Notes under the pieces: model-generated
Seen by the model: only the letters and a program-made list of their open reading frames with translations
Told to the model about the DNA's origin: nothing
The model's database searches: none
Assembly (NCBI GenBank): GCA_937921775.1
Contig: CAKZUK010000102.1
Coordinates: 1 to 64,000 of the forward strand
DNA length: 64,000 nt
DNA from: an uncultured Saprospiraceae bacterium
GTDB taxonomy: Bacteria > Bacteroidota > Bacteroidia > Chitinophagales > Saprospiraceae
Reading direction: 5' to 3'
Made by a program: the position numbers and the translations under genes
Part shown: positions 40,529-64,000 of the stretch, one piece after another
Layout of the letters: every line of letters starts with the position of its first letter
Position numbering within the stretch: the first letter of the stretch is position 1

Positions 40529-41608
40529 ATGAAAAAACTAATTGTCCTAATTTTACTAGCATCTCAAATCACTTTCGCACAATCCTCCATTGTCACCGAA
40601 ACAATAAACGAAATAGAATTTGAGCAAGACAGCATTAAATCTATTTTTGACTGGTTGTCTAACAACATAAAATACGACGTCAAAAAGATGAAACAAATTG
40701 AGAATGGATCCATTGCGAAGAAGCATGCAGAATTTAGAACATCCAAAGAATACGAAAATTATTTGTTGCAAACTGTAATCAAACGAAAGAAAGGAGTTTG
40801 TGAAGACTACGCATTGTTATTTGATGCAATAGTAAACGAACTGGGTTACGAATCTTATGTGGTACAAGGCTACACCAAAACAAGCAAAGGCAAGCTAAAT
40901 CGAAAAATTGGTCATGCTTGGAATGCGATAAAAGTAAATGGAACTTGGAAGTTATACGACGCCACTTGGGGAGCTGGCTATGTAGAAGATGGTCGAAAAT
41001 TTGTACAATTATATGGCGAACAATGGTATGATGTCTCATCAGAAGAAATGCTGAAAAACCATATGCCTTACGATCCGATTTGGCAATTATCAACTAAGCC
41101 AATCACTTATTCTGATTTTGAAAACAATACTGAACCTGCTAAATCTGATGCCGATTTCAACTATGAATCGCTAATCACAGCATATATAGATAAAAGTGAA
41201 AAAGAGCGAATGAAAGAAAAGGTGAGCCGATCAGAAGATTTAGGTGATGGGATTCGACTTATCGCAAAATGGAGAAAAAATACAACGAAGAATGCCAATC
41301 TATACGATCTACATAGTCAACCTGATTTGATGGATCAAACATTTAAAAAGTTTAATAATTCAGTAGATCTGTTCAATGATTACATCAAGGCAAAAAATAA
41401 AAAGTTTAAGGGAAGGAAATGGACGGCAGATTATGCAAAACAAAATTTGAAAAAAGCAGAAACTCAAATGACAGATGTCGTTACTGTTTTTAAAAGTGTG
41501 AACGTGGAAGATAAAAAGGCAAATAGATCATTGGGCAAAGGGCTTAGAGATGCGGATAAATTATTGAAGCGGATCGGGGAGGAGTTGGAATTTTTGGAGA
41601 AGTTGTGA
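40529..41608 (+). CDS. Secreted transglutaminase-like domain protein
   Basis: The 359-residue protein has a signal peptide (LLASQITFAQSS). A transglutaminase/protease-like core follows with Cys in KKGVCEDYALLFDAI, His in GHAWNAIKV and Asp in LYDATWGAG, the full triad of the transglutaminase-like superfamily in correct order. Bacterial members are proteases, amidases or cross-linkers, and some act on peptidoglycan peptides. The C-terminal 180 residues are Lys-rich and predicted mostly helical, without a known domain. The gene lies between a family A repeat and an uncharacterised gene; no partner is obvious. Confidence 0.85.
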   Translation: MKKLIVLILLASQITFAQSSIVTETINEIEFEQDSIKSIFDWLSNNIKYDVKKMKQIENGSIAKKHAEFRTSKEYENYLLQTVIKRKKGVCEDYALLFDAIVNELGYESYVVQGYTKTSKGKLNRKIGHAWNAIKVNGTWKLYDATWGAGYVEDGRKFVQLYGEQWYDVSSEEMLKNHMPYDPIWQLSTKPITYSDFENNTEPAKSDADFNYESLITAYIDKSEKERMKEKVSRSEDLGDGIRLIAKWRKNTTKNANLYDLHSQPDLMDQTFKKFNNSVDLFNDYIKAKNKKFKGRKWTADYAKQNLKKAETQMTDVVTVFKSVNVEDKKANRSLGKGLRDADKLLKRIGEELEFLEKL

Positions 41609-60045: not shown

Positions 60046-61650
60046 CTAAAATCGCTTCTTCTTCTTAAAGCTACCTGCACCAGACTTCTTACGTCCACCA
60101 AAGGTTTTTCTTTCCCCGTCTCCGCTACCACTACGGTCGCGATCACCACTGCGATCTCTATCATTACTACGTTCTCTATCTCCTCCTCCTGTACGACGTC
60201 TGCGATCACCATAGCCACGGCCACCGCCGCCGCCACCACCACCGCGACGGAATCCACCGCCGCCGCCGCCACCACGTCGTCTATCACCACCTCTTCCTCT
60301 TGAATCACGGCCTCCACCGCCACGCTGTTCAAAATCATTCAAGTCTTTATCACTACCAGAACCTAACTTGTCTAGTTCGCCAACCAATAACTTCTTGATC
60401 AAAGCTTCTTTAGTAAGTTCCTCAAAAAGTTCGGTTACTTTTGCCAAGACATCGTCATGTATACGTCCCTTGGTTTTTGTATTGACGATACCTTCGCACC
60501 ATCTTTCTATTCGTGATTCCGCGATAGCTTCACTACTTGGAATTCTTACTTTTGTAAATTGAATACCCAACAAACGTTCAAGCGAGTAAATTCGGTAAGT
60601 TTCACGACCACTAATAAAAGTAATTGAAATACCTTTCTTTCCAGCACGAGCAGTACGACCACTACGGTGTGTGTAATATTCGTTTTGATCGGGTAGGGTA
60701 AAGTGAAAAACGTGTGTCAAATCATCTACATCAATTCCACGAGCTGCTACATCCGTTGCAACCAAAACCTTAAGGTCATGTGCTTTGAATCGACGCATTA
60801 CACGGTCACGTTGTGCTTGTGAAAGATCACCATGCAAGGCATCAGCACGATAACCTGCCTTTACTAAATCTTCCGCTAGGTTTTGTGTATCACGCTTAGT
60901 TCGACAAAAAACAACACCACGTAAATCCTGATTCAAATCAATAAAGCGAGTCATCGCTTCCATCTTGTCATGGTTACGTACCAAAACATATTGATGCTCA
61001 ATATTTACATTTACTTCGTTCTTAGTATTCACCTTCACCTCTACAGGCTCGTCCATGTATTTCTTGACGATTCTCTTAATCTCTTTCGCCATAGTTGCTG
61101 AAAACAACCAAGTGATTTTGTCCTCAGATGCATAGCTCAAAATCTCATCAATCTCTTCTTTGAAACCCATGTTGAGCATTTCATCTGCTTCATCCAGAAT
61201 CAACATTTCCAGTTGATCTAGGTTTACAGCTTTACGTTTGATCAAGTCAATAAGACGACCAGGTGTAGCAATGATAACGTGAGTTGGCTTGCGAAGCTCT
61301 TTGATTTGATTGTAAATCGGAGTACCACCATAAACAGGAAGTATATTAACTCTAGATTGGTACTTACTGTACTTGTAAAGTTGGTCAGCAATCTGCTGTC
61401 CAAGTTCACGTGTAGGAGCGAGTACGAGAGCTTGCGTATACTTTTTGGAAGTATCAATTCGCTGAAGTAGCGGTAATCCGAAAGCAGCAGTTTTACCAGT
61501 TCCCGTCTGAGCAAGACCGATAAAATCGGTATCCTCATTGATAAGAGTCGGTATGGCTTGTGTTTGAATGTCACTTGGCTTTTCGAATCCAAGTTCGGAG
61601 ATAGCCTTCAGAATGTCATCTGAGAGGCCCAGTTCTTTAAATGTTGTCAA
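60046..61650 (-). CDS. DEAD-box RNA helicase with Arg/Gly-rich tail
   Basis: The 534-residue protein unwinds RNA duplexes using ATP. All helicase motifs are visible: Q motif FEKPSDIQTQAIP, motif I AQTGTGKTAAFG, Ia PTRELGQQ, Ib TPGRLID, II DEADEM, III SAT, V VATDVAARGIDVDD and VI HRSGRTARAG. Residues about 370-445 form a DbpA/CsdA-like extension. The last ~90 residues are an RGG-type disordered tail (RRGGGGGGGFRRGGG and Arg/Asp/Ser repeats) ending in a basic KKKKRF. Proteins of this type act in ribosome assembly and cold adaptation, and the tail probably binds RNA unspecifically. The 258-base gap upstream could hold a structured leader. Confidence 0.96.
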   Translation of the reverse strand: MTTFKELGLSDDILKAISELGFEKPSDIQTQAIPTLINEDTDFIGLAQTGTGKTAAFGLPLLQRIDTSKKYTQALVLAPTRELGQQIADQLYKYSKYQSRVNILPVYGGTPIYNQIKELRKPTHVIIATPGRLIDLIKRKAVNLDQLEMLILDEADEMLNMGFKEEIDEILSYASEDKITWLFSATMAKEIKRIVKKYMDEPVEVKVNTKNEVNVNIEHQYVLVRNHDKMEAMTRFIDLNQDLRGVVFCRTKRDTQNLAEDLVKAGYRADALHGDLSQAQRDRVMRRFKAHDLKVLVATDVAARGIDVDDLTHVFHFTLPDQNEYYTHRSGRTARAGKKGISITFISGRETYRIYSLERLLGIQFTKVRIPSSEAIAESRIERWCEGIVNTKTKGRIHDDVLAKVTELFEELTKEALIKKLLVGELDKLGSGSDKDLNDFEQRGGGGRDSRGRGGDRRRGGGGGGGFRRGGGGGGGGRGYGDRRRRTGGGDRERSNDRDRSGDRDRSGSGDGERKTFGGRKKSGAGSFKKKKRF

Positions 61651-61908: not shown

Positions 61909-62694
61909 TTACATACGTATATAAAAATATTTGCATAACAAATCATCAAAATCTGTCTTATTTTTTACTTTTTTGCTTTTGACAGCACTGCCTTCTGTTA
62001 TTTTCAGTGTATCTCCAGTCAAGGAAATACGACCTGTGAGTGTCGGTCTTGTAATGATGATCTTTTGAGTAAAATGTGAATCAGGACTGGTCTGCGTATA
62101 ATGACACATTTCTTCAAAGTCTGTATAGTTCATTTTGTCCTTTCTGAAAATGTATTCTGGACTAGCTATCGTATCCTCGTTCGAGATGCCATCAAGAGGC
62201 GCTACCCATTTGCTAACTTGAAGGTGAGTTTCATCATATTGGTCAATTTGGAAATTACCTTTTAGATCATGCTGTATCAAACCCAAGCTCAGGGCTAAAG
62301 GTCCCATTGCAAATGCTCCAAATCCGACATCAGAGAGATATTCATCTTCACCTAACTTTACGAGTACAGCCATATGCGCATGTTCCTTTCCATAACCAGT
62401 AGCTTCCTTGTACACCCGACAAGTAATTAGTTTGGCTTCAAAGCCTAAGGTCAATAACAATTGATAGAATAAGCCATTGAGTTCATAGCAAAATCCACCT
62501 CTTCCATTAGTAATCACTTTCGTGAAAATGCGATTGATATCTAAGCGAATCTCCGTATTATAATGAATGTCTAAATTTTCGAAAGGGATATGTAATAGAT
62601 GTGCTTTTTGTAAAAGACTAAGTGTGTCAAGGTCGACTTTTGGCTTGAGCTTAAATTTTATTCGTTTTAGATAGCTGCTTATATTTATCTCCAT
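61909..62694 (-). CDS. nat: Arylamine N-acetyltransferase
   Basis: NAT transfers acetyl from acetyl-CoA to aromatic amines and hydrazines. I use ATG 62694 (MEINISSYLKRIKFKLKP); the track's longer ORF runs through the aquaporin gene. The 261-residue protein has the full Cys-His-Asp triad: Cys in GRGGFCYELNGLFY, His in EHAHMAVLV and Asp in YLSDVGFGA. The N-terminal HIPFENLDIHY is a family marker. It lies 38 bases downstream of the aquaporin gene on the same strand, probably in one transcript with it and the arsenate-reductase-like gene. Its natural substrate is unknown. Confidence 0.93.
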   Translation of the reverse strand: MEINISSYLKRIKFKLKPKVDLDTLSLLQKAHLLHIPFENLDIHYNTEIRLDINRIFTKVITNGRGGFCYELNGLFYQLLLTLGFEAKLITCRVYKEATGYGKEHAHMAVLVKLGEDEYLSDVGFGAFAMGPLALSLGLIQHDLKGNFQIDQYDETHLQVSKWVAPLDGISNEDTIASPEYIFRKDKMNYTDFEEMCHYTQTSPDSHFTQKIIITRPTLTGRISLTGDTLKITEGSAVKSKKVKNKTDFDDLLCKYFYIRM

Positions 62695-62732
62695 ACTAAT
62701 TCTCGGTTCATAAACTCTAATGAAGTTAAGTC

Positions 62733-63368
62733 TTATTCTCGCAACAGCTTCCAAGTAAAAGTCGCCAACACCGCACCAATAATAGGTGCCGCTATATAAA
62801 GCCACAAACTGGTCAACTCCCCAGAGACCAATGCTGGTCCAATAGATCGAGCAGGGTTCATAGAAGCGCCACAAATAGGTCCCGCAAACATGGCTTCTAG
62901 CAAAACAGTACCACCTACAGCAATAGCAGTATACGGGCTGGTCTCTTTATTTTGGCTAACAAAGAGAATGACTAGCATCAGAAAAAAAGTAAGTATTATC
63001 TCCAAAACAAAAGACTGCATTTCAGAACCTTGGGGAAGTGTGGCGCCAAGGTTGGGGTGAGAAGGAAAAAGAAATTTCAGGGTAGCTGCTGCTAGAATCG
63101 CTCCTGCTAATTGTGCAATGATGTAAGGCATTAAATCTGATTTCTTAAATCGATCGGTCAGCGCAAAGCCAATGGTCACTGCTGGATTAATATGAGCGCC
63201 AGATAAACTACCAAATGAGAAAATCATTGCCATGACGATAAGCCCGAAGGTAATCGCGATTCCAACGTGACCCATAGAGCCATTTGTCAAGTCATTAATA
63301 ACTACAGCACCAGGACCACAAAATATGAGGGCATAGGTTCCGAGGGCTTCTGCAACATATCTTTTCAT
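62733..63368 (-). CDS. MIP family channel (aquaporin / aquaglyceroporin-like)
   Basis: The 211-residue protein has six membrane helices and both NPA half-helix motifs: GAHINPAVTIG at about residue 60 and GASMNPARSIGPAL at about residue 170. The Arg after the second NPA is the conserved selectivity-filter residue. Such channels move water, glycerol or small neutral solutes; in several bacteria an aquaporin in an ars cluster (AqpS) exports arsenite as As(OH)3. That role is suggested here by the neighbouring arsenate-reductase-like gene, 98 bases upstream, but cannot be read from the channel itself. Confidence 0.93.
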   Translation of the reverse strand: MKRYVAEALGTYALIFCGPGAVVINDLTNGSMGHVGIAITFGLIVMAMIFSFGSLSGAHINPAVTIGFALTDRFKKSDLMPYIIAQLAGAILAAATLKFLFPSHPNLGATLPQGSEMQSFVLEIILTFFLMLVILFVSQNKETSPYTAIAVGGTVLLEAMFAGPICGASMNPARSIGPALVSGELTSLWLYIAAPIIGAVLATFTWKLLRE

Positions 63369-63385
63369 GTCTTTTATTTAAATTT

Positions 63386-63457
63386 GAGTCTTCTTGAAGG
63401 TTTTACTATAAAATTAAACGAAGGTTCGAAGTTATTGAAAAAACTTCAAGAAGACTC
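63386..63457 (-). terminator. Inverted repeat between the reductase-like and aquaporin genes
   Basis: GAGTCTTCTTGAAG and its exact complement CTTCAAGAAGACTC lie 44 bases apart, starting just after the reductase-like gene's stop codon and ending about 18 bases before the aquaporin start on the minus strand. It may be a partial terminator or attenuator, or a regulator site. I cannot tell which. Confidence 0.4.
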
Positions 63458-63466
63458 ATGTGTTTG

Positions 63467-64000
63467 TTAAACTCTGCTAAGAACGAACAAAAACTCGCGA
63501 CCAATCTGTCGACAAGCTTCGTCATAAGTTTGAGCTTCCTTAGCTGTTCCGTCTGATGCTTTAGGGTCATTAAAAGGAATAGATAACTTAAAGTCAGCTC
63601 CCTCTACATTAGGACAGGCTGTTTCTGCATCGGTGCAAACCATGACTGCCGCAAAACCCTTCTTAGGATTTGGAGCTTCATCATACTTTTTAGAAAAAGC
63701 TTGATAAGGAACCATGCCTTCAGACCAGCTGATATCATATTTTGGATTACTAGAAGTTACTTCTGAAACACTGACGTCAAAGCCAGCTCTTTTTATTGCT
63801 TCTACTGCGTTTTTGTTGAAGGCAGTTGCTTCAGTTCCACCAGAATAGGTTTCAACTTCAGGAAGCTTATAGTAATTAGCAGCTGTGGCCATCCAAATTG
63901 CCCCGAGGTGAGATCTTCTAGAGTTGTGCGTGCAGATGACGTTAATACGGGGTGTTACTCCTTCTTCAATTTTTCCTGCAATATAATCGCTTAGCGATCG
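63467..64000 (-). CDS. Low-molecular-weight phosphatase-fold arsenate reductase-like protein, N-terminus beyond window
   Basis: The track starts at an internal Met (63892), but the frame stays open to the window edge, adding at least 36 residues (RSLSDYIAGKIEEGVTPRI...). These contain the phosphate-binding loop CTHNSRRSH (C-x5-R-S), the catalytic site of LMW tyrosine phosphatases and ArsC-type arsenate reductases. Downstream, VMVCTDAETACPN has two Cys seven residues apart, exactly as Cys82 and Cys89 of thioredoxin-coupled ArsC. This suggests arsenate reduction rather than phosphotyrosine hydrolysis. The gene heads a same-strand series with the aquaporin and NAT genes. Its start is outside the window. 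Confidence 0.85.
   Translation of the reverse strand, partial: RSLSDYIAGKIEEGVTPRINVICTHNSRRSHLGAIWMATAANYYKLPEVETYSGGTEATAFNKNAVEAIKRAGFDVSVSEVTSSNPKYDISWSEGMVPYQAFSKKYDEAPNPKKGFAAVMVCTDAETACPNVEGADFKLSIPFNDPKASDGTAKEAQTYDEACRQIGREFLFVLSRV

Follow-up and report, generated by a model that had tools for sequence, protein, structure and literature searches.

A putative arsenic-detoxification pair of an ArsC-like reductase and a NIP-like channel beside an arylamine N-acetyltransferase in an uncultured Saprospiraceae bacterium

The closest described counterparts of the locus analyzed here are the ars operon of Sinorhizobium meliloti, which includes aqpS, and the AqpS-ArsC fusion of Salinispora (PMC6205960, PMC4435449), in which an arsenate reductase is coupled to a MIP channel that replaces ArsB or ACR3. 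In a survey of MIPs encoded in ars operons, all 18 of the 18 were the sole transporter of their operon (PMC4435449). A second known arrangement is that of the arsR-(DUF6428)-reductase-ACR3 loci of Bacteroidota, present in relatives of the organism studied here. Acetyltransferases also occur in ars operons, namely ArsN1 and ArsN2, the former being close to phosphinothricin acetyltransferases and acting on arsinothricin (PMC6465285).

The present locus resembles the S. meliloti and Salinispora systems in joining a putative arsenate reductase to a MIP with no ArsB or ACR3, but differs from them: its reductase comes from a divergent family of longer ArsC-like proteins, its channel is NIP-like, and the arsR gene is on a separate contig. 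In the Bacteroidota loci a reductase of this family occupies the equivalent place, whereas here a MIP replaces ACR3 and no arsR is linked. As an arsenic-detoxification pair, the reductase and MIP are of a known kind, and the gene set is ordinary; that a Bacteroidota ArsC-like reductase pairs with a NIP-like channel instead of ACR3 means little beyond local annotation, and the pairing fits the published view that the MIPs of ars operons stand alone as transporters. The neighboring arylamine N-acetyltransferase (NAT) gene resembles ArsN1 and ArsN2 in being an acetyltransferase gene near arsenic genes, but, unlike them, it encodes a PF00797 arylamine NAT and has no conserved link to ars genes; a possible false lead, arylamine NATs as members of ars operons, is thereby removed. 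We consider it probable (approximately 0.85) that the locus holds a two-gene arsenate-detoxification pair together with a bystander NAT that became adjacent through rearrangement.

The window, that is, the whole 64,000-nucleotide stretch of DNA analyzed, corresponds to bases 1–64000 of contig C102 in a 6.28-Mb draft genome. The order noted in the preliminary description of this DNA, a reductase gene, a MIP gene, and a NAT gene with a complete triad, all on one strand and separated by 98 bp (reductase–MIP) and 38 bp (MIP–NAT), was borne out by the open reading frames, by the Pfam matches PF00230 and PF00797, and by the catalytic motifs. The features are as follows:

63467..64000, minus strand, cut by the window edge (full gene, C102:63467-64081): predicted thioredoxin-ArsC-like arsenate reductase with a phosphatase fold (motifs, alignment)
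63385..63458, no strand assigned: 27-nt inverted repeat (hairpin) in the reductase–MIP gap (RNA fold)
62733..63368, minus strand: MIP channel, 211 residues (PF00230)
62689..62721, no strand assigned: solo right arm of a MITE-like repeat in the MIP–NAT gap (repeat search)
61909..62694, minus strand: arylamine N-acetyltransferase, 261 residues, judged to lie outside the arsenic pair (PF00797)
60046..61650, minus strand: DEAD-box helicase, a conserved neighbor of the NAT in a same-genus genome, outside the arsenic pair (comparison with the relative)

The reductase gene starts with TTG, encodes 204 residues, and extends beyond the window edge to C102:64081. The protein had no Pfam match; its best NCBIfam matches were the thioredoxin-type arsenate reductase models TIGR02691 and PRK13530, both far below the curated cut-offs (40.6 versus 174.3 bits and 36 versus 215 bits, respectively). 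Its P-loop, CTHNSRRSH (CX5R(S), with the nucleophilic Cys), aligns with the Cys10 region of Bacillus subtilis ArsC, and CTDAETACP (C-x6-CP) aligns with CGDAADKCP of 1jl3, i.e., with Cys82 and Cys89 of B. subtilis ArsC, in agreement with the preliminary description of a phosphatase-fold gene carrying both elements. The P-loop and the C-x6-C motif are both kept in 57 of 58 reductase homologues. Judged from these motifs, the protein would work like ArsC yet lies outside the curated ArsC family, and it should be called ArsC-like. We infer that it most likely converts arsenate into arsenite by a three-cysteine relay, with thioredoxin as its partner.

The genes around reductase homologues were mapped at 54 Saprospiraceae-type loci obtained by whole-genome searches, which were used in place of a contig scan with the reductase that had given six loci; the identities of ACR3, ArsR, and DUF6428 were confirmed on representatives with NCBIfam and Pfam. 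ArsR was encoded at most three genes from the reductase in 20 of the 54 loci, ACR3 was near it in 13, and DUF6428 in 7; at several loci the DUF6428 gene separates arsR from the reductase. A MIP gene followed the reductase directly downstream in six loci, and MIP and ACR3 co-occurred in none of the 54. At least one of these four markers was present in 28 loci, and no recognized ars marker was found near the reductase in the relatives' other 26. One locus (L137) has the order ArsR–reductase–MIP, with ArsR immediately before the reductase, and another (L089) combines the reductase–MIP pair with DUF6428. In the pairs of the six relatives, the reading frames overlap by 1–8 bp and the two genes therefore look translationally coupled. 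The conserved context supports the arsenic reading, in which the reductase and the MIP would form a credible arsenic pair. As a separate observation, tandemly duplicated reductase genes lie between arsR and ACR3 in several relatives (L094, L142, and L122).

The MIP matched PF00230 at 2.4e-51 and contains the NPA motif twice. Its best solved relatives are the structures of rice NIP2-1 (Lsi1), ahead of AqpZ, and rice Lsi1 conducts arsenite too (PMC9510833). The window MIP is 52–71% identical to the six reductase-linked MIPs of relatives and 38% identical to the AqpZ-like paralogue of its own genome. The alignment columns that we take to be the selectivity filter read F-A-A-R in each of the seven MIPs linked to a reductase, versus F-H-T-R in the AqpZ-like paralogue. 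These properties bear on the alternative that the pair is unrelated to arsenic and consists of a protein phosphatase and a water or small-solute channel, for which the low scores of the reductase against the curated ArsC models, the lack of a nearby arsR, and the many relatives' reductases without recognized ars genes could be adduced. A NIP-like MIP without the water-selective His/Thr argues against such a pair, as do the conserved redox Cys pair, the ArsR genes next to or near 20 of the 54 homologues, the ACR3 genes at 13, and the ArsR–reductase–MIP locus, and we regard this alternative as unlikely. Under the arsenic reading, the MIP is probably the arsenite exit of its own genome, because neither ACR3 nor ArsB was detectable there; in analogy to AqpS-ArsC, the NIP-like channel most likely lets arsenite diffuse out down its gradient in place of ACR3.

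At the reductase–MIP site, where the genes overlap in relatives, the window instead carries a 27-nt inverted repeat (63385–63458; −26.3 kcal/mol, z −5.8). The hairpin has no U-run and is therefore not a clear terminator, and no further copy of its arm sequence was found within the window.

The preliminary description had proposed looking for arsR just beyond the window edge; neither arsR nor any other ars gene was found in the remaining 7 kb to the end of contig C102. The genome contains seven ArsR-type matches. One of them is closely related (57% identical) to the ars-locus ArsR and forms an arsR-DUF6428 pair on contig C212 (L176:5277-6217), unlinked to any reductase or transporter and preceded by the operator-like ATCGTAATATTGCAAT. 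Directly upstream of many relatives' arsR genes lies ATCGTAATATTGCRAT, which the present genome contains in a single exact (0-mismatch) copy, preceding the arsR gene of C212; no copy was found at the reductase–MIP–NAT locus, even with three mismatches allowed. This motif could be part of the promoter and not an operator. Because the locus has neither arsR nor the operator-like motif, arsenic induction of the reductase and MIP genes is not evident.

The NAT matched PF00797 at 8.7e-58 with the Cys-His-Asp triad present, and its catalytic motifs RGGFCYELN, HAHM, and SDVGFG align with those of solved NATs. Bacterial arylamine NATs (2bsz and others) match it over nearly the full length, catalytic motifs included, with no notable difference. 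The genome encodes a second arylamine NAT on contig C1 (L005:9824-10639), 34% identical and with no ars genes nearby; a third NAT-family match, at 40763–40978 of the window, proved to be part of a transglutaminase-like protein.

Arylamine NATs act on aromatic amines, and the preliminary description had assigned all three genes to one arsenic operon, in which the NAT could acetylate aromatic arsenicals that carry an amine, for example arsanilic acid. Adjacency on the same strand with a gap of only 38 bp and the intact catalytic motifs are consistent with this proposal. Its linkage to the reductase and the MIP, however, is not conserved in relatives. The NAT was found in 18 of 100 family genomes; of these, 11 besides the present one also encode the reductase, on a different contig in all 11. 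When 27 NAT loci of relatives across the family and order were mapped, several of them on short contigs, no reductase, MIP, or ArsR was found near any of them. Three genomes with the reductase–MIP pair (G014, G030, and G055) also carry a NAT elsewhere. In the same-genus genome G068, the helicase–NAT block is collinear with that of the window (aligned at 81% over 2.4 kb), whereas an unrelated position-mate, a lipoprotein-like gene, precedes the NAT; the reductase and the MIP are firmly absent from beside the NAT, and they were not found anywhere in G068, which is weak evidence in a genome 71% complete. A repeat at the MIP–NAT junction, the lack of arsR or the operator-like motif at the locus, and the second, unlinked NAT likewise argue against the three-gene operon. 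Moreover, the acetyltransferases known from such operons, ArsN, belong to another family, with arsinothricin as the substrate of ArsN1 (PMC6465285). No paper linking arylamine NATs with ars operons or arsanilic acid was found in the titles, abstracts, and passages covered. We regard the three-gene operon as very improbable. Two of the outcomes that the preliminary description had named as refuting it were observed: the NAT is not a conserved neighbor of the other two genes, and no ars genes lie beyond the window edge. The arsenic reading is supported for the reductase–MIP pair, with context in 28 of 54 relatives, and not for the NAT, whose suggested action on aromatic arsenicals is left unsupported; the NAT is judged from these comparisons to be an ordinary xenobiotic-type neighbor that would not be part of the arsenic pair.

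The repeat arm at 62689–62721 fills 27 of the 38 bp of the MIP–NAT gap and supplies the start codon and the second codon of the NAT, so that the extra Glu2 relative to the NAT of G068 derives from the repeat. The arm gave nine matches in the genome, two of them near contig ends, versus none for a reversed control. Three fuller copies of approximately 175 bp are non-coding and form a long hairpin with inverted ends (e.g., L101:40-216), and the dispersed repeat is therefore MITE-like. The arm coincides with the breakpoint at which the collinearity with G068 ends before the NAT. Since it makes up most of the gap, it suggests a rearrangement junction; the NAT probably became adjacent through rearrangement at this repeat, a history that we infer from the sequence comparison. 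As a trace of the event, pirin and beta-lactamase neighbors were looked for in G068; the pirin was not found there, and the beta-lactamase has no close counterpart in the present genome.

In the preferred reading of a two-gene pair and a bystander, the NAT would have no arsenic role, and it could be co-transcribed with the pair. A more specific version takes the NAT as a passenger that is co-transcribed and induced along with a real arsenic pair and has no selected function there. The shared strand and the 38-bp gap fit it, the 27-nt hairpin between the reductase and MIP genes and the lack of an operator-like motif at the locus do not, and it is possible but somewhat doubtful; it is compatible with the preferred reading and differs from it in transcription only. 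We give very little credence to a lineage-specific course of events in which rearrangement at the MITE-like repeat put the NAT under the expression of the pair and selection later favored its acetylating an aromatic arsenical.

The other side of the reductase gene also bears repeats. A shorter two-arm copy of the MITE-like repeat lies upstream of the reductase in the same orientation (~C102:65270-65380; L004:7270-7380). The intergenic regions upstream of the reductase further contain a 43-nt repeat, GAAAATATAAGCAAATAATTGCATCGAATTTTTTTGCGTACAC, in two tandem copies (L004:6634-6719) and a third copy at L004:7054-7096.
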